Shown: positions 18,640 through 32,090, numbered from the stretch's first letter. The stretch is 32,439 nt of DNA from an uncultured Bacilli bacterium (GCA_944364015.1 CALVVX010000004.1:1-32439), one strand, 5' to 3'. Notes: generated by a model from the letters alone, not told the origin. Program-made: numbers and translations.

Positions 18640-18668
18640 AAAAGAATAATTCTATAATGAATTATTCT
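18640..18668 (-). terminator. Terminator of the surface-protein operon
   Basis: A perfect 10-bp stem (AGAATAATTC with GAATTATTCT) closes a six-base loop and is followed by a short U-tract (TTTTAT) on the minus strand. The first arm contains part of the stop codon of the 236-residue gene. Confidence 0.6.
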
Positions 18669-19377
18669 ACTTTATATTTTGTAAATCTATTGGTTTATTT
18701 AACATAACAAATTTATCAAATCTTAATGCTTTATCTTCATTTAAACTAATTCTATAAGCATTATTTGATACATAAACTTTTTCATTAGTTATATTTGTTA
18801 TATAATATTTATCAGTCTCTTTATCATAATATTCTAAACTATTATTATTATTCACTATAACATATGACATTGGACTAAGATTTATCTTTTTTCCCTCTAT
18901 GTCTAAAATAGAAGCTTCTGGAAAGAAATACAAGTCATATCCATCATATAATACTAAATTAGCAACCTCTTTATCATAGTCAGTTGTTTTTAATTTATAT
19001 GCTGTATTTGATTCATCATATTCAATAGAAGAATAAATAGGAAGTCGTACTTGCTTATAATTTTCATAAACAAATAATGCTGTCATTTCCTTTGGAAAAA
19101 TAGCTTTATTTTCAATGTAAACCACATTAGTTAAATCCATATTTTTACTAGGGGTTATATCAATTATTTCCTTTTTTCTATTTATTTTCACATCATAAGT
19201 ATCATTTATTTTTGTTCCTGCAAAGTGGGTATATCCTTCTTCTGTTTTAGTTTCAGAATAGTTATTATATAACTTTTGAATATTGTAAATAGCATATGTT
19301 AGAAGCAAAACAATAATTAAGCATATTGGTATTAATATTACATAATGTTTAATAACAAACTCTTTTATTTTTTTCAT
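18667..19377 (-). CDS. Membrane-anchored extracytoplasmic protein (short member of a three-gene series)
   Basis: A 236-residue protein with a short Lys-rich cytoplasmic tail, one transmembrane helix (about residues 10-33) and a ~200-residue outer domain of alternating hydrophobic residues that looks all-beta. I do not recognise a family. The outer domain resembles the membrane-proximal modules of the next two upstream proteins in pattern: a Pro/Tyr strand, then xAYxLK, then a Tyr-rich hairpin. The acidic linker and fibronectin-like repeats are missing. It is third in the operon, 12 bases after the 475-residue gene. The only Cys is in the membrane helix. A structural or assembly role at the cell surface is inferred from context. 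Confidence 0.7.
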   Translation of the reverse strand: MKKIKEFVIKHYVILIPICLIIVLLLTYAIYNIQKLYNNYSETKTEEGYTHFAGTKINDTYDVKINRKKEIIDITPSKNMDLTNVVYIENKAIFPKEMTALFVYENYKQVRLPIYSSIEYDESNTAYKLKTTDYDKEVANLVLYDGYDLYFFPEASILDIEGKKINLSPMSYVIVNNNNSLEYYDKETDKYYITNITNEKVYVSNNAYRISLNEDKALRFDKFVMLNKPIDLQNIK

Positions 19378-19389
19378 TATTTTTCCTCC

Positions 19390-20817
19390 CTATGGCATAG
19401 CTATTTTATAACTTATATTACTATTTATAGTATAACCTTGATATACTATATTAGATAAATATACTGTTACATAACTACCAATATCATCATATTCAAAATA
19501 TCCCTCTATGCTATCTTTACCATTTAATGTAGATGAATTTATACTATTAGTAAGTTCTAGTTTACCATTTTTAAGATCTGATACTAAATTTACATTGACA
19601 CTATCTAGTTTATAATCTTTATCCAATGATAATTTGTAATAAATTCTATCAGAAGTTACTTTTGTTATCTTTAAATCAAGTTCAGGACTTCCCATCATAA
19701 CACTTGCCTCATCAAATTGTTCTTCAACTCTTTTGTTATTATCATAATAACTATACTTGAAATTCAATTTATATGTAACATTGGCTCTTAATCCTGGTAT
19801 TACTAAATTATTTGTTGTTTTATCAAAATAACTTACTGCCACTAATGTATTGTTAGAATCATATATTTCTACAAAAACTGATTCATATTCATCTAATGGA
19901 TCATATATTACATAATCAACATTTATATATCCCACTGATGCTGTTACTGATATAATTGATGTTGTTTTAGTTGCATCTATAAAATGATCTGTATTATTAT
20001 TATCTTGTTGTTGATTATTGTTTTGCGATCCATCTTGTTCATTATTTTGATTATTATCTTCTTCTGGTGGTGTTTGAGTATTTCCTCCTGCTCCTTGTTG
20101 TTGATTTTGTTCGTCTTCATCAGTTGAAGGTTTAGTCTCTTCTATTTCTTCTGCTTTTACATATTCATTTGTACTTCCTATTATCTTCTTTAAATCAACT
20201 TCTTCATTTTCTATATACAATTTCTCTAAAGCTATATCAAATGTATAAGTGGATGTTTGTATCTGCGTTTCTTTGAAAGTTTTTAGATTTAGAGTATTAT
20301 TGTAAAGTTGTGCATTACCACTTTTATCTAATTCTACAATTAAATAATTTGTTGTATTTAATTCACCATTAGTAGTTCTTATTACTTTATCTACTATTAA
20401 ATATTTTCTGTCTGCAATTTTGTAAAATTTAGATTCATTTATATTTACTAAAGTTTCATCTTCATGTACTATCACTTTATCTTCACCTTCAGATGTTACT
20501 TCATAATATTTTCCATATAAATTCATTTGTGATTTTTTAGGATTATATATAATTGCATTATTTCCCAATAAATACATCTGATCTCGATACATTAAATAAT
20601 ACATATCATTCCATTTTATTTTTAAAATGCCATCTTCATCTAATTTTACTAAATTTTTATCTTTATCATACATAACGGATCCTGCATCTATATCATAATG
20701 TATTTTTCCATTGGTTATTACTTTATTTATAAAGAAAGAAAATATGACAATTAGAATAACACTTGCAATTAATATTATAAACATATACATTTTATTTTTT
20801 TTATCATATTTTCTCAT
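19390..20817 (-). CDS. Membrane-anchored surface protein with acidic/Gln linker and FN3-like domains
   Basis: A 475-residue protein. A cytoplasmic Lys/Arg-rich start and one helix (about 11-32) anchor it. Residues ~35-220 form the membrane-proximal module shared in style with its two operon neighbours. Residues ~221-277 are a Glu, Asp, Asn and Gln-rich linker that should be disordered. The rest holds about two fibronectin-III-like beta domains (for example VIPGLRANVTYKLNFKYSY). There are no cysteines, sortase signal or enzyme motif. It lies 11 bases after the 1854-residue gene and 12 before the last one. It is probably a surface scaffold or partner of the giant protein. Function unknown. Confidence 0.72.
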   Translation of the reverse strand: MRKYDKKNKMYMFIILIASVILIVIFSFFINKVITNGKIHYDIDAGSVMYDKDKNLVKLDEDGILKIKWNDMYYLMYRDQMYLLGNNAIIYNPKKSQMNLYGKYYEVTSEGEDKVIVHEDETLVNINESKFYKIADRKYLIVDKVIRTTNGELNTTNYLIVELDKSGNAQLYNNTLNLKTFKETQIQTSTYTFDIALEKLYIENEEVDLKKIIGSTNEYVKAEEIEETKPSTDEDEQNQQQGAGGNTQTPPEEDNNQNNEQDGSQNNNQQQDNNNTDHFIDATKTTSIISVTASVGYINVDYVIYDPLDEYESVFVEIYDSNNTLVAVSYFDKTTNNLVIPGLRANVTYKLNFKYSYYDNNKRVEEQFDEASVMMGSPELDLKITKVTSDRIYYKLSLDKDYKLDSVNVNLVSDLKNGKLELTNSINSSTLNGKDSIEGYFEYDDIGSYVTVYLSNIVYQGYTINSNISYKIAMP

Positions 20818-20828
20818 TTTTATTCCTC

Positions 20829-23800
20829 CTATCCAACGGTAATATATTTAGAATTATTACTTGTAGATATTGCTTGATATTCTCCATTTTCATCTGTTAT
20901 ATAAAATTGGAATGTTATCATATATGTTGTTTTTGGCTCTAATTTTATATTTTCATCATCTAAAACTAATGTATAATATCTATCTTGATTACTACCTTCA
21001 ATCATATTAAACATTTTATCCATTCCTTCACCAATGGTATAAGTATTTGTAGTTATTGGTGTGCTTTGTCCTTCTTTTGTTATTGTATAATCCATTTTAG
21101 TGATATTTGTTAAATTAGAACTACTAAAGAAATTCATTGTAATACTATTAGAAGTAGCATTAATAGCTAATTCTCCTAGTGATACACCATAAATACCAGA
21201 AGTATAAATTGAATAATTATAAATATTTGTTTTATTTATATATTGATTATAATCTGCTCCATTTAATTCAGCTTCATCTCTTAATGATTTGTTATTCATG
21301 TATGTTGTTAAACTTACTTCTAATGTATATTCTCTATTTGGAACTAAATTAGCAATAACGTTATATTTATCAACTTCATCTAAAGTAGTTGCAAATTTTA
21401 TTGTTCTTAATTCTTCAACATCAATATTTTCAATTTTAGCAACTTCTGATCCATAACTATCTAACAATCTAACATTATATGTTCCATTTGGAATTACTTT
21501 ATCATCATCTGTAATTGCTATATTGTATTCTAATGAATATATATAGTTTGAATCAACAATTTCTGTTTTTGCACCTTTAGTAACTGTTATACTTGGAGAA
21601 ATTAATTCTGCTAAGTTTATGTAATCGTTATATATTTCTACTTCTTCTTCTTGTTGTGATGTTGTCGTTTTAGCAAGCAATTGAATTTTAAAATAATCAT
21701 CTCCAAATATAGTATCATAGTTTGTTATATCAAAATCAATTTTATTATTTATCTCTAACGTTTCATTAGTTATTGTTTTAGTATCCACGATTATGTCATT
21801 TTCTATTAAATTGATTACTAAATCATAATTTTTAGTTACATTTGTAATTTCATTGTTCAATGTTAGATCTAAATTAAGATTTCTATTTAAGTATTTTTCT
21901 TCACTACTACTTGATTTATGAGTAGCAATCATATCTCCATATAACTGACTACCACTTAATGTTTTAAATTTATATGTTGTTGGTACACAGCTAGATGTTT
22001 CGCAAATTAAAGTATCATTTAATTGAACATAAGTTTTTCCATTCTTGTCTAAATATGCAAATATCTTATATGTATATGTAGTATCATCATCCAAATTTTC
22101 AATTGTAAAATTTGTTGTTCCTGTTGTGCTAATTTCTATTTTTTTAGTATCTATTTTACTCGAAGTATCTTCATTATATAATTCAACATAATAGTAATAT
22201 TTTCCATCATCGTCTGCAATAAAATCTTTTTTCAAGACATTTTCTGTAATACTTGAAGATGTTATTGAAATATCTGCTCCATTTATAATTGGATTGTATG
22301 AAGTAGTTATATCAGGTGTAATACTATAAAATTTAAAAGTGTTATTTGAACTTTCATCTATATTTATTTGCTTTTTATCCACAGTTTTGAAATTAATAGT
22401 ATAATTACCATTTTTATATCCTTCATTTGTTCTTGTTAGACTTATATTTAATTTTTTAATTCTTGCATCCTTATAATTTAATAAATTATTGTTATATATT
22501 AAATTATATAAATTAAATGTCGATTGATTTGTTTCATAATAATATAAATCTTTTGGTAATTCTGATTCTACTAAATTAGAAGCATTATTTAATACTAAAT
22601 AAGTTCCTTGTCCTGTTTCATTGCTATTTTGTTGTACCAAATATCCATATTCTGATGGTTGTGCAATTAAACCTGTATCATAATATCCATATAAATTTAC
22701 ACTTAATGTGCGATCTGGAAAATCTTCTATATCTCTATAATGATAATCTAAATATTTAATGCATCCAGAATTTGGTTCACAATCTTGTAATTCAGAGAAA
22801 AATCTATTTCTAATTGTTACAGTATTACTTTTTACTTCTAATTCATAAGTACTTATTCGATCAATTATTTTTCTTGCATTTTCTGTATCTAATATTTTAA
22901 GAGTTATTTTATTACTTGTTTCATTATTTTCTAATATATAATGCAAATTATAATCATCTAAATTATAAAATCCATCAAATGTATAATTAGTTTGATAATC
23001 TATTTTTACATCCTGCTCTTCATTAGCAGTCTTATTAATGGCGTTTTTATAATATATACTGTATTTTGAACCATTTGATAAATTAGAAATTGTAAATTCT
23101 GCTCCTTTATTTAATGTAAGTGGAACTTCATATTCTGTATCATCAATGCTATAATATAATGAATAATTTTCTTTCCCTTCTTCTTTATATAAGGCGACAT
23201 CTCTATCATACATTGTATATGCATAAGTAATAGAGTTTTCTGTACTTGATACAATGTTCAAATAAAAGTCCGGTGCTTGTTTATTGGCAACAACTGGATC
23301 AGATTCTACGTATTCTCTTTGTATTCTTCCAGGATAATAGTAATCTGTTGTATTATCTTTGCCATCGTCTACTGTTATGTAAAATCTAAATTTGTATTTA
23401 TTCCCACGATATAATACAATATTTCCATTGCTATTTACTATTGCATCTTTTTTATAATAATCTGTTCCTGCTTGATAATTAAATGTTTTTGTATAACTTC
23501 CTGTTAATTCATTCATCTTTTCACTACTTAAATCATGACATTCTCCTGTTGTCATTGAACATACTCCCATATGCATATAGTAATTTGCATTTGGGTATAA
23601 AAGCGCTAAATTTTCAGAATCATAGTTAGCAGTTACAATTGCTCTGTCCGCTACATTATTTACATTTCTTATTTCTACATCCATCCAAGGATCACCTAGG
23701 ATATCATCTGCTCGAAGATCTGTATTTATTTCAAATATGTATTTATTGTTTTCTACAGCAATGTTATTTATACCTGCACTATCAGTCGCATTTGTTATTT

Positions 23801-26393
23801 CAAAAATGTAATATCTTGTTAACAAACCATTTGTTTGTGCTTTTAATTTATCAATGTCCATATTAAATGTATTAGTTGCACTAATTATGAAATTATTATC
23901 AAAGAAATTTTTCTTTATTTCATCCGTATAATCAACGGTTCCTACTTGCTTTCCATCTTCTATATTTTCAGTATTACTTGCGTATACATTGATTGTTAAA
24001 TTAGTTAGAGCATTTATTTCTGCTTGTGAATTATTACTAGATGCTAATTTATTACCTCCAAGTGAAAATACTTGCTCAACTGTACTTATTTTCTCATCGC
24101 CCCAATTTACTGTTAGTGGAACAATACTTTTAGTAGAGGCATTCATACTTTCTCCTATTTGTACGCATTCTCCTTGTTCATACATAGTAGCATCACAAGA
24201 TTGTAAACCATTTCCATCTTTAAAATCTACTCCCCCAAAAACTTCTATCATATAATTTGTATTGGCTTTTAGTCCCGTAGCTTCAAAGCGATAATTTAGA
24301 TTTACTGGATCAAAGTTTGCTTCTACGGTTGAATAATTTAGTGTTGTTGTTCCTGTTTCATAATATCTTATATATATTTTATTTGGAGCATTATAACAAT
24401 TTCTTCCTTCAATTGGAATAGTACAGTTATCATCTGCAATTTTTATTTCTCCAGATAAAGTATTAAATGTTGTTTTATCACTGTCTAATGCAAAGCTTAC
24501 TGATGGTACTGCACCCGCTACAAATGAGTTGCTATAACCACTATTGTATTCTACATCTTTTTCATTGTCATTATATTCTACTACTACCATATAACGATAG
24601 CTTTGTCCTGTTATTAGATTTTTACCATCGATTTCTAAGTCAAATGGAGTACTATCTTTTTTCTCTATGGCATCCATTACAGGATCTTTGCCACCTTCGC
24701 CTGTAACACTATTGTATTTATAAATGTAATAGCGATAGCCAGTTATTGCTTTATCTTCGTCAATTACTTCTCCAATATCAAAAGTTACTTTTGTCATTTC
24801 TTTATTTACAGTTGCTTTTACATTTGTTACAATTGGTGATTTTTTAAGTGTTTTTGCATCTAGTGTTATTGTATAATCTCCATTTTCACGATAATTATTA
24901 CCTTCTTCAACATCAGTATATATTACGTTATTATATGCTATGTTGTTTAACACTATTTTATAATCACTATTAGATTGTAAGTTTTCAAATGTTATTTCTT
25001 CATTTTCGCGTGAGACTGTTATATTTTTTCTTTCTATTTCATTATTTTCATGATCAAATATACTTATATCATATCCCTTTACTGCATTGGTATTTCCTAC
25101 TGTGGCATTTACTGTTATACTATCTTTAGTTACAAAACTTTTTTCTAATTTTATATCTAGTCCCTCTGTTACAAAAACTCTTTGGAAGTATTGTTTATCA
25201 TAACTTACATCTTCATTAGTATAATTACCTGTTATTGATACTATATAATTTGTATCTGGTGATAAACTGCCACTTGGTGTTGATATTGTTACTATATTAC
25301 TTATATCATCTATAGTTGTTCTATATACTGTTTGTGCTGTTTTCATATTAATTACAGCTACGTTTAAACTACCTTGTATTACTTTGTATTCATCTATTAT
25401 TTGTAAATCTAGATCCATTTTATTTGCAGTAATATTCGCTTCAATTATTTTAAATATAGGGTTTTTTGTAATTGTTACTTCCTCAGTTGGAGTATTTGGA
25501 TCTTCTTCATCTTCATCTGGAGGAGTTGTTTCTGGTTGCTGTGGTGTTTGTGGTTGCTGATTATCTTCTGTTGCATTTCCATCACCGTCTCCACTTCCTG
25601 ATCCATCTCCATCACTGCCTTCATTATTTTCTTGTTCTTCTGGTGGTAATATTTCAATATTTTCATCACCATTTATTGTCATTTGATCAAGTGATATTTT
25701 AGCTTCATCATTGTAATATATATATTTATCTCCTAAATTAATTACTGTATCTTCTCCTATATAAATATAACTCTTATCCGCTGTAGTAGTTCTTGTATTA
25801 ATTCCATCTGATATTACTACTACTCCATCTTCTACGTATGTTAGTTCAAAAAAACTTCCTACCGCTTGCGATATCATCATATCTGCATTACCTGATAATC
25901 TTGCACTTATATTTTCAGAAGCAATTATATATTTATTTTCGCTTATTTTTCCTATCCAACTATTTATTTCTAAATCTCCATTAACGTTTTTAATATGATA
26001 GGCATTATTAATAAATTCAATTAATGATTTATTTGTTATATTATAATAAGGAATTATATCATCATTTATATTTTCAAGGTTTAAAATTACACCATTTTGT
26101 AAAAATGCAATATCACCATTGTCATAGTGAATAAAATTATCTAATGTTGCTTCTACTTTAGTCTTATTTTCATTTTTAAAGGTTAAATTTCCACTTATAT
26201 TATGTCTGTATTCTTCACCTTCATTAAATTTATATACTTCTGTATTTCCGCTTTTATAAGATATTATATATCCGTTTTTAGTAAATGTCTGCTTATTATT
26301 CTGAGTCAAAAAGAAAACTCCAGCAATTAACAAAACTAAACTCAAGATACTTAATACCATTATTATCCCAAAACTTTTTTTTATAACTCCCAT
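20829..26393 (-). CDS. Giant membrane-anchored surface protein with FN3-like repeats and five paired cysteines
   Basis: An 1854-residue protein. One N-terminal helix (about 9-30) anchors it; residues ~35-247 are the membrane-proximal module; ~248-303 is an acidic/Gly/Pro/Gln linker; the rest is a rod of about ten fibronectin-III-like domains. Each is marked by a strand such as LSPDTNYIVSI, LITGQSYRYMV, LKANTNYMIEV or LEPKTTYMITF. All ten cysteines form close pairs: 657/666, 733/743, 945/952, 1205/1211 and 1464/1469, pointing to five small disulfide loops. There is no LPxTG, catalytic domain or C-terminal anchor. The ATG follows GGGAGG. It heads a three-gene operon with its own promoter. An adhesin or matrix scaffold is likely; the ligand is unknown. 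Confidence 0.78.
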   Translation of the reverse strand: MGVIKKSFGIIMVLSILSLVLLIAGVFFLTQNNKQTFTKNGYIISYKSGNTEVYKFNEGEEYRHNISGNLTFKNENKTKVEATLDNFIHYDNGDIAFLQNGVILNLENINDDIIPYYNITNKSLIEFINNAYHIKNVNGDLEINSWIGKISENKYIIASENISARLSGNADMMISQAVGSFFELTYVEDGVVVISDGINTRTTTADKSYIYIGEDTVINLGDKYIYYNDEAKISLDQMTINGDENIEILPPEEQENNEGSDGDGSGSGDGDGNATEDNQQPQTPQQPETTPPDEDEEDPNTPTEEVTITKNPIFKIIEANITANKMDLDLQIIDEYKVIQGSLNVAVINMKTAQTVYRTTIDDISNIVTISTPSGSLSPDTNYIVSITGNYTNEDVSYDKQYFQRVFVTEGLDIKLEKSFVTKDSITVNATVGNTNAVKGYDISIFDHENNEIERKNITVSRENEEITFENLQSNSDYKIVLNNIAYNNVIYTDVEEGNNYRENGDYTITLDAKTLKKSPIVTNVKATVNKEMTKVTFDIGEVIDEDKAITGYRYYIYKYNSVTGEGGKDPVMDAIEKKDSTPFDLEIDGKNLITGQSYRYMVVVEYNDNEKDVEYNSGYSNSFVAGAVPSVSFALDSDKTTFNTLSGEIKIADDNCTIPIEGRNCYNAPNKIYIRYYETGTTTLNYSTVEANFDPVNLNYRFEATGLKANTNYMIEVFGGVDFKDGNGLQSCDATMYEQGECVQIGESMNASTKSIVPLTVNWGDEKISTVEQVFSLGGNKLASSNNSQAEINALTNLTINVYASNTENIEDGKQVGTVDYTDEIKKNFFDNNFIISATNTFNMDIDKLKAQTNGLLTRYYIFEITNATDSAGINNIAVENNKYIFEINTDLRADDILGDPWMDVEIRNVNNVADRAIVTANYDSENLALLYPNANYYMHMGVCSMTTGECHDLSSEKMNELTGSYTKTFNYQAGTDYYKKDAIVNSNGNIVLYRGNKYKFRFYITVDDGKDNTTDYYYPGRIQREYVESDPVVANKQAPDFYLNIVSSTENSITYAYTMYDRDVALYKEEGKENYSLYYSIDDTEYEVPLTLNKGAEFTISNLSNGSKYSIYYKNAINKTANEEQDVKIDYQTNYTFDGFYNLDDYNLHYILENNETSNKITLKILDTENARKIIDRISTYELEVKSNTVTIRNRFFSELQDCEPNSGCIKYLDYHYRDIEDFPDRTLSVNLYGYYDTGLIAQPSEYGYLVQQNSNETGQGTYLVLNNASNLVESELPKDLYYYETNQSTFNLYNLIYNNNLLNYKDARIKKLNISLTRTNEGYKNGNYTINFKTVDKKQINIDESSNNTFKFYSITPDITTSYNPIINGADISITSSSITENVLKKDFIADDDGKYYYYVELYNEDTSSKIDTKKIEISTTGTTNFTIENLDDDTTYTYKIFAYLDKNGKTYVQLNDTLICETSSCVPTTYKFKTLSGSQLYGDMIATHKSSSSEEKYLNRNLNLDLTLNNEITNVTKNYDLVINLIENDIIVDTKTITNETLEINNKIDFDITNYDTIFGDDYFKIQLLAKTTTSQQEEEVEIYNDYINLAELISPSITVTKGAKTEIVDSNYIYSLEYNIAITDDDKVIPNGTYNVRLLDSYGSEVAKIENIDVEELRTIKFATTLDEVDKYNVIANLVPNREYTLEVSLTTYMNNKSLRDEAELNGADYNQYINKTNIYNYSIYTSGIYGVSLGELAINATSNSITMNFFSSSNLTNITKMDYTITKEGQSTPITTNTYTIGEGMDKMFNMIEGSNQDRYYTLVLDDENIKLEPKTTYMITFQFYITDENGEYQAISTSNNSKYITVG

Positions 26394-26420: not shown

Positions 26421-26449
26421 ATTATATCATTTGCTTTTCTAGAAGTCAA
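26421..26449 (-). promoter_or_regulatory. Sigma-A promoter of the surface-protein operon
   Basis: TTGACT (26449-26444), a 17-base spacer and TATAAT (26426-26421) on the minus strand, with RNA start near 26414, 21 bases before the ATG of the 1854-residue gene. Confidence 0.82.
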
Positions 26450-26814: not shown

Positions 26815-26841
26815 ATTAAAAAAACACGATTATTCCGTGTT
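26815..26841 (-). terminator. Terminator of the 207-residue TasA-like gene
   Basis: Stem AACACG/CGTGTT with an eight-base-or-less AT loop, followed by TTTTTT on the minus strand, directly after the stop codon. Confidence 0.8.
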
Positions 26842-26843
26842 AT

Positions 26844-27467
26844 TTATCCAATAAACGTTGCATTTGCTCCTGTGCCTGCTGTTGAATTAAATTGAACTGT
26901 TCCTGCAAAATTACCACGATCGTAATTATTTTGCGACTTACCTGTATCACTTAACCAAATTAAAATATAAAATTTTGAACTACTTCCTGGTCCCATTACA
27001 AATGAAGTTTTCCAGTTTTGATCATTCATTGTATGAACTTTTCCAAATGGTGTTGCATCTGTTGCACTGTTAATTTCTGCCCACTTTAGATTAGTAAACT
27101 TGCTATTTTCTCCAACTGCATATAATTCTATTTTACTTGATAGTGTTGAAATTACATTACCAGTATTAGTTACTGTTATTTGATATAATTGGCATATTCC
27201 TTTACCATCTTCATCAACACATGAACCATTTGTAGTTCCATTTAATGCATTTTGTAAATTAGTATCTTGTGTTGGAAGCAAGCCAATCGTGTTATCACTC
27301 GTTACTCTTTCTACATTTAACGATAATCCTACATAAGCTGATTCTGGTGTTACAGTACTTTTACCTTTTGAGTTAGAATAAAAATACGAAAAGCTAATTG
27401 TTGCTGTTGAGATTAATATTACTATTATTATTACTGCTATATAAAGTTTTCTATACCCACTTGACAT
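26844..27467 (-). CDS. TasA/camelysin-like secreted protein, divergent copy
   Basis: A 207-residue secreted protein with an N-terminal hydrophobic stretch ending in SFSYFYSNS, like the FAYF-type SipW-dependent signal of TasA and camelysin. The mature part is beta-rich. It shares with the three proteins downstream on the map a Gly-Leu-Ser-Leu strand, the CVDEDGKGIC loop (Cys83/Cys92), QLYQITVTNTG, NLKWAE, FYILIWL and a closing GTVQFNS...NATF. It is the least similar of the four: the GGLIP motif is reduced to GLLP. It has its own promoter, AGGAGG site and terminator, so it can be expressed separately. It is probably a fibre or matrix subunit. No SipW signal peptidase gene is in the window. Confidence 0.72.
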   Translation of the reverse strand: MSSGYRKLYIAVIIIVILISTATISFSYFYSNSKGKSTVTPESAYVGLSLNVERVTSDNTIGLLPTQDTNLQNALNGTTNGSCVDEDGKGICQLYQITVTNTGNVISTLSSKIELYAVGENSKFTNLKWAEINSATDATPFGKVHTMNDQNWKTSFVMGPGSSSKFYILIWLSDTGKSQNNYDRGNFAGTVQFNSTAGTGANATFIG

Positions 27468-27498
27468 AATTTACCTCCTATTCTATTTCTATATCTTT

Positions 27499-27527
27499 AT
27501 AATAGCAAAAAATAAATAAAATTGCAA
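27499..27527 (-). promoter_or_regulatory. TasA-array promoter, copy 1
   Basis: TTGCAA (27527-27522), a 17-base T-rich spacer ending in TGC, and TATTAT (27504-27499) on the minus strand: an extended -10 promoter of the form shared by all four TasA-like genes. Confidence 0.7.
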
Positions 27528-27529
27528 GA

Positions 27530-27560
27530 GTAAAAAAAGAACATAATCTATTGACTATGT
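27530..27560 (-). terminator. Terminator of the 226-residue TasA-like gene
   Basis: Stem ACATAGTC/GATTATGT with an AATA loop, followed by TCTTTTTTT on the minus strand. The stem-loop is identical to the one at 28341-28360. Confidence 0.8.
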
Positions 27561-27562
27561 CT

Positions 27563-28243
27563 TTATGCACTAAATGTTGCAGATATTCCAGAACCATCAG
27601 CAGAGTTGAATGCTACGCTTCCATTAAAGTGTCCATAATCTGCTGAATTTTGAGCTTCGTTTAAGTTATCAATCCAAATAACTACATAAAATGTTTGATC
27701 TCCCTCTGCATTTAATGTTACATTAGATGCTATTGGGTTTTCTCCTATTCCATATGAAGTTGCACCTGGATTAACAGTAGTGCTATCAGTTAATACTTGC
27801 CATTTTAAATTAGCAAATGAACTTTCTTGTTCCTCTTCTTCATCTACACCTTGGTATGGCACTGCTTGTAGGTCTAATGTTCCAGTAACAGCTGCGATGC
27901 TATTACCTTCATTTATTACTTTAATTGAATAAATTTGACATATACTATTGTTATTACTATCTAAACAAGTTTTAGGATCTCCTGTTGCAGCCGTATCACC
28001 AGTTACTGCTTTTTGTAAATCAGTTGTATTTAAAGGAATTAACCCTCCTACTGCTCCTGTACTTAGATGAGTTACTTCTAGACTAAGACCTGTATTAGCA
28101 GCCTCACCTTGGATAGTATTAGTATCTTCAGCAGTTGCTGTAAAGTATGCAAATGTTGCTCCGATTATTGCTACTACTAAAGTTGCTACTCCGATTACAC
28201 CGTAGAAAAAACCAGTTCCGCTTTTCTTTTCTTTTTCTTCCAT
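27563..28243 (-). CDS. TasA/camelysin-like secreted protein
   Basis: A 226-residue protein with a short charged start (MEEKEKKSGTG), a hydrophobic signal ending in ATFAYFTATAED (probable SipW-type cleavage after AxA), and a beta-rich mature domain. Family marks are VGGLIPLN, the loop CLDSNNNSIC (Cys93/Cys102), QIYSIKVINEG, SSFANLKW, PIASNVTLN, FYVVIWIDNL and GSVAFNSADGSGISATFS. An acidic insert (DEEEEQE) is unique to this copy. AAGGAGG precedes the ATG; it has its own promoter and terminator. It is likely a secreted fibre-type subunit; function is inferred from the TasA resemblance and the array context. Confidence 0.75.
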   Translation of the reverse strand: MEEKEKKSGTGFFYGVIGVATLVVAIIGATFAYFTATAEDTNTIQGEAANTGLSLEVTHLSTGAVGGLIPLNTTDLQKAVTGDTAATGDPKTCLDSNNNSICQIYSIKVINEGNSIAAVTGTLDLQAVPYQGVDEEEEQESSFANLKWQVLTDSTTVNPGATSYGIGENPIASNVTLNAEGDQTFYVVIWIDNLNEAQNSADYGHFNGSVAFNSADGSGISATFSA

Positions 28244-28267
28244 TTTTATATCCTCCTTACATTAATA

Positions 28268-28296
28268 ATGATAGCAAAAAATACTTTTTTATGCAA
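28268..28296 (-). promoter_or_regulatory. TasA-array promoter, copy 2
   Basis: TTGCAT (28296-28291), 17-base spacer ending TTTTTTGC, TATCAT (28273-28268), then the shared leader with TAAGGAGGATA before the ATG. Confidence 0.7.
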
Positions 28297-28331
28297 CTGT
28301 TTTCTAAAAAAAATATTAAAAAGTATTAAAT

Positions 28332-28360
28332 AATAAAAAAACATAATCTATTGACTATGT
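28332..28360 (-). terminator. Terminator of the interrupted TasA-like gene
   Basis: Same stem-loop as at 27541-27560 (ACATAGTC/GATTATGT, loop AATA) followed by TTTTTTATTATT on the minus strand. Confidence 0.8.
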
Positions 28361-28362
28361 TT

Positions 28363-28995
28363 TTATGAACTAAATGTTGCAGATACACCTGCTCCATCAG
28401 CAGAATTGAATGTTACACTACCTGTAAATGAACCAGTATCATCTGATGATTGGTCTGAACTTAAGTTGCTGATCCAAATCATAACGAAATATGTTTTGCT
28501 TCCACTAGCAGTTAATGATGCTCCAGTGTCTAGAGTTGTTGTAGCTATTGGATTATAAGTTGTTGTTGTTGATAATGAACTTGATTCAGTACCATTTAGT
28601 AATTGCCATTTTAAGTTTGCAAATGTTGTACCTGTTATATTTAAAGTACCATTTACAACTGCTGTTGCAGTACCATTGTTAGTAACTGTTATTTGGTATA
28701 CTTGACATACTGTATTTCCATTTTTATCTACACACATTTTACTACTTGTAGCAGCATCACCTTTTAAACCTTTAGAAACATCAGCACCATTCATTGGAAT
28801 TAATCATCTAGCTGCATCTGTACTAACTTTTGTTACGTCTAGATTTAATCCAATTTGTGCAGCATTACCTTTGATTATAGTGTCGTTAGTAGCTGTTGCA
28901 CTAAAGTATGCAAATGTTGCTCCTATTATTGCAACTACTAATGTAGCCACACCTATTACTCCATAAAAAATTCCCTTTCCGTTATTATTTTCCAT
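28363..28995 (-). pseudogene. TasA/camelysin-like gene interrupted by an in-frame TGA
   Basis: This is a full-length copy of the neighbouring 210-residue gene, except that codon 64 is TGA (28806-28804). In the intact paralogue this spot reads Asp-Ala-Ala-Gly-Gly-Leu-Ile-Pro with GGA GGA; here it reads AGA TGA, so two substitutions and no frameshift. The first 63 codons encode the signal (ATFAYFSATAT) and first strand. The remaining ~146 codons stay open in the same frame with the CVDKNGNTVC loop, QVYQITVTNNG and the conserved end intact. The ATG shortly after the stop has no ribosome-binding site and would lack a signal. Promoter and terminator are intact. It is most likely a recent nonsense mutation; readthrough or a base error are alternatives. 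Confidence 0.75.
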
Positions 28996-29020
28996 TTTCT
29001 ATCCTCCTTACATTAATAAT
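28885..29020. repeat. Direct repeat, copy A (signal-peptide region of the TasA-like genes)
   Basis: This 136-base segment matches 29626-29761 at a fixed offset of 741 bases, with only two differences seen. It covers the leader, ribosome-binding site and signal-peptide codons, and marks a recent duplication or gene conversion. Confidence 0.85.
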
Positions 29021-29047
29021 AATAGCAAAAAATATTTTTTTATGCAA
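29019..29047 (-). promoter_or_regulatory. TasA-array promoter, copy 3
   Basis: TTGCAT (29047-29042), 17-base spacer ending TTTTTTGC, TATTAT (29024-29019). It still serves the interrupted gene. Confidence 0.7.
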
Positions 29048-29060
29048 TATATTTTTTAAA

Positions 29061-29099
29061 AAAAATTAAAAAAGTTTGAATTTTTTATCAAACTTTTTC
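29061..29099 (-). terminator. Terminator of the 210-residue TasA-like gene
   Basis: Stem AAAAAGTTTGA/TCAAACTTTTT with a loop of about eight A/T bases, followed by a T-rich tract on the minus strand, four bases after the stop codon. Confidence 0.75.
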
Positions 29100-29103
29100 T
29101 TTT

Positions 29104-29736
29104 TTAACTAAATGTAGCTGATATACCCGCTCCATCTCCAGAGTTGAAGGTTACACTTCCTGTAAATGAACCAGTATCTGTTGATGTTTGGTCTGAATCT
29201 AAGTTGCTGATCCAAATCATTATATAATAAGTTGCTGAACCATTGTTAGCTGCTAGTGTTGTTCCATTTACTAAAGTTGTTGTTGATACGGGATTATATG
29301 TAGAATTTGTTGATAATGCATCAGGTCCTGTTCCGTCTAGTAATTGCCATTTTAAATTAGCATATCCTGTTGCAGTTATGTTTAAAGTTCCATTTACTAT
29401 GGCTGCTGAACTACCAGTGTTATTTACAGTAATTGAATATACTTGACATACTGTATTTCCATTTTTATCTACACACATTTTACTACCTGTAGTAGCATCT
29501 CCTTTTAAACCTTTAGCTATATCTGCGTTGTTCATTGGAATTAATCCTCCAGCAGCATCTGTACTAACTTTATCTACACTAAGATTTAGTCCTACTGTAG
29601 CTGCAGTACCTTGGATTACATTATTGTTAGTAGCTGTTGCACTAAAGTATGCAAATGTTGCTCCTATTATTGCAACTACTAATGTAGCTACGCCTATTAC
29701 TCCATAAAAAATTCCCTTTCCGTTATTATTTTCCAT
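29104..29736 (-). CDS. TasA/camelysin-like secreted protein
   Basis: A 210-residue secreted protein and the intact twin of the interrupted copy. MENNNGKGIFYG leads into a hydrophobic signal ending ATFAYFSATATN. The mature part carries AAGGLIPMNNADIAKGLKGD, the loop CVDKNGNTVC (Cys88/Cys97), QVYSITVNNTG, NGTLNIT, YANLKW, YYIMIWISNL and GSVTFNSGDGAGISATFS. It is nearly identical to the broken copy over the signal region and diverges more in the middle, as expected for surface proteins with gene conversion. It has its own promoter and terminator. A TasA-like fibre subunit is the best guess; no enzyme residues of peptidase M73 type can be assigned. Confidence 0.77.
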   Translation of the reverse strand: MENNNGKGIFYGVIGVATLVVAIIGATFAYFSATATNNNVIQGTAATVGLNLSVDKVSTDAAGGLIPMNNADIAKGLKGDATTGSKMCVDKNGNTVCQVYSITVNNTGSSAAIVNGTLNITATGYANLKWQLLDGTGPDALSTNSTYNPVSTTTLVNGTTLAANNGSATYYIMIWISNLDSDQTSTDTGSFTGSVTFNSGDGAGISATFS

Positions 29737-29792: not shown

Positions 29793-32090
29793 TTATTCTG
29801 TTCTTAACGCTTCTACAGGATCTTTTTTACTTGCTAATTTTGCAGGAATGAAACCTCCAATTAGTGTTAAGCTTATACTTACTATCATCAATATTAATGC
29901 ATGTAGAGGATTAAGCTGTGCCACATTTTCTAAATTAGTTAAATTTTCTAGCAATATATTAGCTGGAACTAATAATATACAAGTTATTAATATTCCTATT
30001 ATTCCAGATACTAGCCCTATTATAAATGTTTCAGCATTAAATACTCTTGTTATATCTTTTTTCCTAGCTCCTAATGCTCTTAGTATTCCTATTTCTTTAG
30101 TTCTTTCTAATACACTTATATAAGTAATTATTCCAATCATTATTGATGATACAATTAATGATATTGCAGAAAAAGAAATTAATACTATTGTTACAGCATT
30201 CATTATATTACCTGTTAATGATGATACCATTTGAGCCATATCAGTATATTGTATTGTGTCTTTTTCTTCTTTTTTTTCATTGTATTTGTCTAAATAACTA
30301 ATTATATTATCTTTAGATTCAAAATCTTTTGGGTATATGTATATTGCTACTGGCGTTGTTTCTGCTCCTAAATAACTTAATATTGTTTCTTTTGTTTCAT
30401 CTTCTGTAAATGGCTGATTAGTTAATACATTATAATCACTTTCTTTTTGATCATTGACAATACTTGATCCTTTATTATTTTCTATTACTATATCTGTTAG
30501 TGCATTTGTATATGCTATAGCACTAGTTGAAGTCAATATTTCTTTATCTTCTTTTCCTCTTATTATTGCTTGTACTTTTATGGTAATACTATTTTCATTA
30601 TTATATAGTGCTTCTAAATCTTGATTAGGAATATAAAACTCATTTACTTTTTTGTAATAATCATCATTCAATACTAATTTTAATTCTTTGTTCAATATAT
30701 CTTCAAAGTCTACTTCATCTTCGCTTGTAAATCCTAATTGTTTTAGTGTTGATGCGTATACTCTATTTTTTGGATCAACTTGTAAAATCAAACCAGGAGA
30801 TGACGTGTCTATTTCTCCTGCTAGGACATCATAGTTTGTTTCTAACATTTCTGATGTATTATCTTCTTTTGTTGGAATTAACGTCCATGGCATTAAACCT
30901 GTTGTTGAATTTACTAATTGATATCCTGTTTCTTCGTTATAGTTTATGATATTAAAATTAGTTGCAGTTTGATACGAAATACCTGATATATCTTTTTGAC
31001 TTATTTTTTTTATATAATCGACATATTCATTTGATATATTATTAGTGTGCATCATCGTTGTTTCTAAATCGTCTTGGACAAATACTTTTTTATCAGTAGG
31101 ATATTTTTCTAAATTATTGTTGTCCTCTATTACTTTGGCTATATTTTCCTCACTCATACTCATTGCTTGTTCACTAATTATAATCGGAGATTGTGATAAT
31201 GTTTCTCTTTCAAATTTATCTATTTGTATATCAAATCCATTTGATAGTGATAATATCAGAGCTATTCCTATTATCCCAATGCTAGAGGCAAATGCTGTTA
31301 GCGCTGTTCTTCCTTTTTTTGTTTTTATATTATTAAATGATAAGTTTAATGCAGTTAAAAAATTCATTGATGTTTTTTTTATGTGAATCTCTTCTTTATT
31401 TTTTTCTTTTTTCTTAATCGGTTTTGAATCGCTAATTAAGCTACCATCTTTAAATTCAATGATTCTTGTAGCATAATTTTTAGCAAGTTCTGGGTTATGT
31501 GTTACCATTATTACTAACTTATCTTGTGCTATTTCTTTTATTAAATCCATTATTTGCTTACTAGTTTTTGTATCAAGTGCTCCTGTTGGTTCATCTGCTA
31601 GTATTATTTCAGGGTTATTTACAAGACTTCTTGCTATTGCTACTCTTTGCATTTGTCCACCAGATAATTGATTAGGTTTTTTATGTATATGTGATTTTAA
31701 GCCTACTTTTGTTAATGCTTCGATTGCTCTTTGTTTTTTTTCTTTTTTATCTACACCACTTAAAGTTAATGACATTTCAACATTTTCTAATATTGATATG
31801 TGATTTATAAGGTTATAGCTTTGGAATATAAAACCTATACAATTATTTCGATATGCATCCCAATTACTATCATCAAATTCTTTTGTTGATTGATTGTTTA
31901 TTATTAAATCTCCATTATCGTATCTATCTAATCCACCTATTATGTTTAGAAGTGTTGTTTTTCCACTTCCTGATGGACCTAATATTGCTACAAATTCGTT
32001 TTTTCTAAACTCTATAGTTACATCTTTTAAGGCGTGTTGTTTAAACTCTCCTGTTTTATAACTTTTGTTGATTTTTTTTAGTTTTAGCAT
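29793..32090 (-). CDS. MacB-type ABC transporter, fused ATPase and permease
   Basis: A 765-residue protein with an N-terminal ABC ATPase (about 1-225) and a C-terminal FtsX/MacB permease. ATPase marks are Walker A GPSGSGKTT at residues 38-46, the Q-loop FIFQSYN, the signature LSGGQMQRVAIARS, Walker B IILADEPTGALD and the H-loop VTHN. One helix near residue 265 precedes a large extracytoplasmic MacB-like core (about 285-630); three helices follow at the C-terminus with the FtsX loop ERTKEIGILRALGARKKDI. Such fusions act as dimers in mechanotransmission, lipoprotein or peptide handling or antimicrobial defence. The ATG follows AGTAGGA. No two-component regulator is adjacent. Its position before the TasA array makes a link to surface-protein handling possible but unproven. 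Confidence 0.88.
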   Translation of the reverse strand: MLKLKKINKSYKTGEFKQHALKDVTIEFRKNEFVAILGPSGSGKTTLLNIIGGLDRYDNGDLIINNQSTKEFDDSNWDAYRNNCIGFIFQSYNLINHISILENVEMSLTLSGVDKKEKKQRAIEALTKVGLKSHIHKKPNQLSGGQMQRVAIARSLVNNPEIILADEPTGALDTKTSKQIMDLIKEIAQDKLVIMVTHNPELAKNYATRIIEFKDGSLISDSKPIKKKEKNKEEIHIKKTSMNFLTALNLSFNNIKTKKGRTALTAFASSIGIIGIALILSLSNGFDIQIDKFERETLSQSPIIISEQAMSMSEENIAKVIEDNNNLEKYPTDKKVFVQDDLETTMMHTNNISNEYVDYIKKISQKDISGISYQTATNFNIINYNEETGYQLVNSTTGLMPWTLIPTKEDNTSEMLETNYDVLAGEIDTSSPGLILQVDPKNRVYASTLKQLGFTSEDEVDFEDILNKELKLVLNDDYYKKVNEFYIPNQDLEALYNNENSITIKVQAIIRGKEDKEILTSTSAIAYTNALTDIVIENNKGSSIVNDQKESDYNVLTNQPFTEDETKETILSYLGAETTPVAIYIYPKDFESKDNIISYLDKYNEKKEEKDTIQYTDMAQMVSSLTGNIMNAVTIVLISFSAISLIVSSIMIGIITYISVLERTKEIGILRALGARKKDITRVFNAETFIIGLVSGIIGILITCILLVPANILLENLTNLENVAQLNPLHALILMIVSISLTLIGGFIPAKLASKKDPVEALRTE

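Follow-up and report, generated by a model that had tools for sequence, protein, structure and literature searches.

The window, the whole 32,439-nucleotide stretch of DNA from an uncultured Bacilli bacterium, carries an array of four tandem TasA-like genes on the minus strand at 26844-29736. Each gene has an AGGAGG-like ribosome-binding site and encodes a signal/transmembrane (TM) helix followed by about 180 residues. TasA-like protein 1 (29104-29736, minus strand, 210 aa) has its signal/TM helix at residues 8-31 and a CX8C pair formed by C88 and C97, the codons of which lie at 29473-29475 and 29446-29448, respectively. TasA-like protein 2 (28363-28995, minus strand) is an interrupted copy of 210 aa if read through one TGA, which stands at codon 64 (28804-28806) where the neighbouring copy has GGA; its CX8C is encoded by codons 88 and 97 (28732-28734 and 28705-28707). 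TasA-like proteins 3 (27563-28243, minus strand, 226 aa) and 4 (26844-27467, minus strand, 207 aa) carry the pair as C93-C102 and C83-C92, respectively. TGA as a sense codon was ruled out, as Trp is encoded by 43 TGG codons across 25 window ORFs and TGA terminates two of those ORFs. Because the source is a metagenome assembly, the TGA in the second copy is possibly an assembly error. All four members have exactly two cysteines, always as CX8C, and the sequences that begin at the second cysteine (CQLYQITV, CQIYSIKV, CQVYSITV, and CQVYQITV) all read Q-x-Y-x-I-x-V after it. The first-pass annotation had described four members, one of them broken, with this pair and this motif, and the genes lie where it placed them. 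A terminator-like hairpin 3' of the array (26823-26841, minus strand) is weak, two having been found against 1.2 expected by shuffling.

A MacB-like ABC transporter adjoins the array (window 29793-32090; L037:2198-8548), and two further ABC-like genes lie between transporter and array in congeners. Within a genome, the leaders of the paralogues are 98-100% identical, compared with 90.5% between genomes (window 28363-29736; L041:2585-3953). The mature parts diverge much more than the leaders, with 68-93% identity, a pattern reminiscent of gene conversion in the signal-sequence region.

A second group of minus-strand genes lies beyond the array. A promoter-like site (26421-26449, minus strand; TTGACT-17-TATAAT with an extended -10, a consensus match only) is located just before the gene of a giant membrane-anchored protein (20829-26393, minus strand, 1854 aa) with a weak FN3 match and five short-range cysteine pairs. 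Paired cysteines in the giant had been noted at first reading and are confirmed, as the short-range pairs are mostly shared or missing together among orthologues. The operon continues with a membrane-anchored protein of 475 aa (19390-20817, minus strand), which resembles the giant's N-terminal part in profile comparison, and with a third gene for a membrane-anchored protein of 236 aa (18667-19377, minus strand). In congeners, the sub-lineage of TasA-like protein 4 adjoins the giant gene, and F1-like ATPase genes come after the counterpart of the 236 aa gene, where the window has none.

The source genome (1.12 Mb in 99 contigs, 89% complete) holds two further family members, both on contig C14: one has CX8C plus a third cysteine (L007:3005-3649) and the other has no cysteine (L007:2412-3002). 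Both adjoin the sole SipW-type signal peptidase found in this genome, which scored 110 bits against a cut-off of 51.85. The F1-like operon of the genome is also on C14 (L007:4169-8406 and L088:169-414); it includes a c-subunit homologue without the ion-binding carboxylate and contains the only F-type ATPase genes found in this genome. The cluster is thus split in the source genome, with the array and the giant on contig C4 and the motor genes and SipW on C14.

Related arrays were present in all six congeners searched, and a search of genome contigs with a single protein returned three loci, all in MAGs of uncultured Bacilli bacterium. A tree was built from 119 related proteins of about 18 genera, and in it the 73 pair-bearing proteins formed one clade with support of 99/94. 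Since the 73 were chosen by the pair, the occurrence of both cysteines in 73/73 is in part a result of that choice; what stands independently is that the pair-bearing proteins form a single clade without a pairless member inside. As the pair defines one well-supported clade, it is not a product of chance, and the distinct subfamily proposed from the window is borne out. The loop is CX8C in 61 clade members, CX7C in 11, and CX9C in one. Q directly follows the second cysteine in 40/73 and the third position after it is aromatic (Y, W, or F) in 73/73. The spacing described as invariant thus holds for most of the clade, but CX7C and CX9C occur too and the Q is limited to roughly half of the members. 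The segment between the cysteines is rich in D, N, and G. The first cysteine column is a gap in 41 of the 46 members outside the clade, which makes an insertion the best reading of the hairpin.

“Pair” labels of G134 and G162 in the tree proved to be pattern matches outside the clade. In the G162 proteins, cysteines with a wider spacing do occur close to these columns, and a pair at this place may therefore somewhat predate the 73-member clade. TasA profile matches occurred in 54 of 145 genomes of the bacterial family, and the pair is absent from most genera examined. Commonness of the family without the cysteines, which would speak against a new subfamily, thus applies to the wide family and not inside the clade. 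The pair is the mark of one derived clade within a large, mostly pairless family; taken by itself, this clade adds a modest new variant to the TasA-like fibres. A large array was seen in G028 (L045:2814-13794), with 14 tandem TasA-like genes, ten of which are of the CX7C subtype.

The SipW-dependent signal TIGR04088 was matched by 13 of 22 members at E up to 0.01. In the window, TasA-like protein 3 reached 23.4 bits (cut-off 19) and TasA-like protein 1 stayed below the cut-off with 16.9 bits. The camelysin model PF12389 remained below its gathering score for TasA-like protein 1 (15.5 against 22.5 bits) and did not match the other window members, and over the 22 members it gave four matches at E of 0.05 or less, the best at 6e-5. 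F31, P67, and Q183 are conserved in 68, 73, and 70 of the 73 clade members, respectively, and are also common in pairless relatives. In TasA, F29, P62, and Q232 are part of the proline box, which lies at the interface between subunits (PMC10151520). The three conserved residues are likely counterparts of this box, matched by order and context rather than by superposition, and their conservation makes it likely that clade members form TasA-like donor-strand fibres.

The system shares with the TasA/CalY (camelysin) fibres of Bacillus (PMC9674648, PMC10151520, PMC13082335) the SipW-type signal and the SipW peptidase, a beta-rich prediction, the likely F/P/Q counterparts of the proline box, several paralogues per genome, and an accessory membrane protein encoded beside SipW. 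It differs from them by the inserted CX7-9C hairpin, by Pfam scores below cut-off, by the clustering of the array with F1-like and giant FN3 genes, and by the lack of a recognisable TapA homologue. A TasA-like domain in the anchor-like protein beside SipW was considered and found no support, as profile comparison shows only TM-helix similarity to the TasA-like family. A literature search returned nothing on TasA in RF39-like bacteria, an absence that is no proof of novelty.

AlphaFold2 models built from 8-9 sequences reached a pLDDT of 76.6 for the whole protein and 84.1 for the mature part. The domain is beta-rich in both, with C88 and C97 on either side of a short bridge (around residues 89 and 94-95), and C97 is located at the next long strand or just ahead of it. 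The models fit a hairpin closed by a predicted disulphide between the two cysteines. Of the disulphide-locked hairpin suggested at first reading, the placement of the pair in a hairpin-like inserted segment agrees with both the alignment gaps and the two models, and the bond itself is inferred. Fold searches gave generic beta-sandwich matches only, with Z below 9; TasA did not appear in the match lists, which is no evidence against a TasA fold. A search of solved structures with the TasA-like profile likewise returned nothing meaningful. Across the 12 genomes searched, no DsbB, DsbA-like, or VKOR oxidase was found, and no Thioredoxin_4 scored above cut-off. The proposal that fibre subunits and giant have one dedicated oxidative route in common is therefore unsupported; oxidation of the pair could possibly be spontaneous or proceed by another route.

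In congeners, the array and the giant belong to a single long cluster with the order array, giant (about 1850 aa), 475 aa protein, 240 aa protein, c homologue (81 aa), b-like protein (250 aa), alpha, beta, epsilon-like, a 4-TM membrane protein of 180 aa, gamma, spacer, TasA-like with cysteines, TasA-like without cysteines, SipW, and anchor-like protein. The full order was pieced together, as no single contig has all of it; L038, L040, L042, L044, and L075 each hold most. The order gamma, spacer, TasA-like with cysteines recurs in L075, L078, and L073. The giant was present in 11 of 145 family genomes, and all 11 carry the F1-like ATPase (Fisher 1e-15); F1-like alpha occurred in one further genome, G095, where the operon includes a true subunit a. 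Among seven sampled genomes with strong matches to the Cys-type TasA profile (E up to 1e-39), six have F1-like genes compared with 5 of 138 others, a difference (p 3e-7) that is not corrected for ancestry; the association of array and motor may partly reflect common descent. Within the class, 5 of 395 genomes carry a match to the b-like protein, all of them from this bacterial family.

G028 has its large Cys-type array without the giant and without F1-like genes, and G013 and G086 encode motor and giant but have TasA-like proteins that lack the pair. Array, giant, and motor are therefore separable. A link between the array and the FN3 operon, expected by the first-pass annotation, thus stands in the congener cluster, where both occur together, without being obligatory.

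The cluster encodes alpha, beta, gamma, epsilon-like, and b-like proteins and a homologue of the c subunit, the epsilon-like protein being named by size and position as it has no Pfam match. PF00006 gave two matches per genome in the 11 giant-bearing genomes, which are the alpha and beta of this system. The P-loops are GDKKTGKT in alpha and GGAGVGKT in beta, and many ordinary F1 chains score above mycoplasma G1 for both subunits, as ranked by score. The c homologue matched PF00137 with 35 bits and PDB c subunits down to 2e-14. It keeps the GxGxG helix and the polar loop, while the position of the ion-binding Glu/Asp in the second helix is Ser or Ala in all eight c homologues compared. PF00119 (subunit a) had no match in the 11 giant-bearing genomes, and the same search gave matches in 9 of 14 control genomes and in G095. 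Gene content, order, conservation, the loss of the carboxylate, and the lack of a subunit a match are read directly from these genomes; together they describe what is apparently a rotary motor without an ion path.

Alpha, beta, gamma, and c homologues and P-loops in alpha and beta are shared with the F1Fo ATP synthase, from which the system differs by the lack of a subunit a match and by a c homologue without the carboxylate. With the mycoplasma F1-like X0 and G1 systems it has in common the alpha, beta, gamma, and epsilon-like genes in one cluster, the lack of a canonical ion path, and a genetic tie to large surface proteins. It differs from them by a carboxylate-less c homologue and a b-like membrane protein, the seven-gene mycoplasma clusters having no c homologue (PMC3369863). 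The 12-TM protein that takes the place of c and b in those clusters was not seen among the cluster ORFs here, and alpha and beta are closer by score to ordinary F1 than to G1. In addition, the F1-like system is the only F-type ATPase found in the source genome, and it is accompanied by FN3 and TasA-like proteins. A literature search returned no paper on F1-like ATPases outside mycoplasmas, which is no proof of novelty. Some F1-like alpha proteins carry long C-terminal extensions (L083:4888-9138, up to 1416 aa; L072:1-1945; L081:2776-4464; L082:4629-6287), and in G024 (L079:4812-6161) a TAA interrupts the F1-like beta gene in the assembly.

The reading that we favour, with somewhat more confidence than doubt, is that the array supplies parallel hairpin-bearing TasA-like fibre subunits to a surface apparatus that includes the giant and the F1-like motor. 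The array would encode a set of parallel TasA-type subunits for an extracellular fibre, each exported and then cut by the SipW-type signal peptidase, the gene of which lies on contig C14. From the proline-box counterparts we infer that the subunits would polymerise by N-terminal donor-strand exchange, with the inserted hairpin, presumably closed by an intramolecular disulphide, decorating the core. The fibre would be part of a surface apparatus to which the giant FN3 protein and the two proteins of its operon also belong, and most genera that have this clade encode an F1-like rotary ATPase along with it. Given a c homologue without carboxylate and no subunit a found, the ATPase would probably spend ATP on moving or remodelling the surface apparatus and not on pumping ions, by analogy with mycoplasma G1 and F1-like X0.

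A plainer account, which we hold to be unlikely but of real weight, sees an ordinary TasA-like biofilm matrix system that acquired the hairpin as a decoration in this lineage, and beside which the F1-like and giant genes lie through shared ancestry with no working link. Several genera of the same bacterial family have SipW and pairless TasA-like genes without F1, and the array of G028 lacks both giant and motor, as this account would expect; it fits less well with a congener cluster that is contiguous from the array through SipW, and with the persistence of the gamma, spacer, TasA-like adjacency across several genera despite diverged sequences. The array could also be mainly a store for surface variation, with near-identical leaders and diverged mature domains maintained by gene conversion. 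The leader and mature identities given above, the ten CX7C copies in G028, and the stopped copy in the window agree with such a store, but no switching mechanism was seen, and variation would go together with a fibre role instead of replacing it. We consider a store improbable as the main function.

The pair itself might bind a metal or make inter-subunit disulphides along the fibre instead of an internal bridge. The D/N/G-rich segment could bind a cation, and the lack of a thiol oxidase in 12 genomes would suit this reading. Against it stand the short and nearly constant spacing, the bridge between the cysteines in both models, and the short-range pairing of the giant's cysteines, so that it appears very improbable. 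The parallel hairpin fibre subunits of a motor-linked apparatus remain our preferred reading.

Taken together, the findings point to a hitherto undescribed surface apparatus that is linked to a motor. In its widest form, Bacilli of one uncultured family would have an F1 motor with a c ring that has lost ion binding and with no subunit a, and this motor would drive a surface machine of the giant FN3 protein and disulphide-hairpin TasA-like fibres; it would stand beside mycoplasma gliding and MIB-MIP as a further F-type ATPase made into a mechanical device of the cell surface, apparently with a separate origin and as the first outside mycoplasmas. This proposal is offered tentatively, and we would sooner doubt it than rely on it. 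If the link is true, an F-type motor without an ion path acts on an extracellular fibre in an uncultured Bacilli lineage, which widens the question raised by G1 and F1-like X0 of how cytoplasmic ATP hydrolysis becomes work on surface proteins, and the recognisable c subunit makes rotation through the membrane testable. It is this setting, a motor apparently without an ion path and tied to a giant surface protein, that gives the finding its weight. At a smaller scale, a probable donor-strand fibre family has gained what is probably a disulphide hairpin, which offers a handle on fibre stability and decoration.

In G168, a Cys-type TasA-like domain is fused to a C-terminal region in proteins of 546-559 aa (L126:3256-4935 and L127:4453-6093), and these fusion proteins are possibly tip adhesins.
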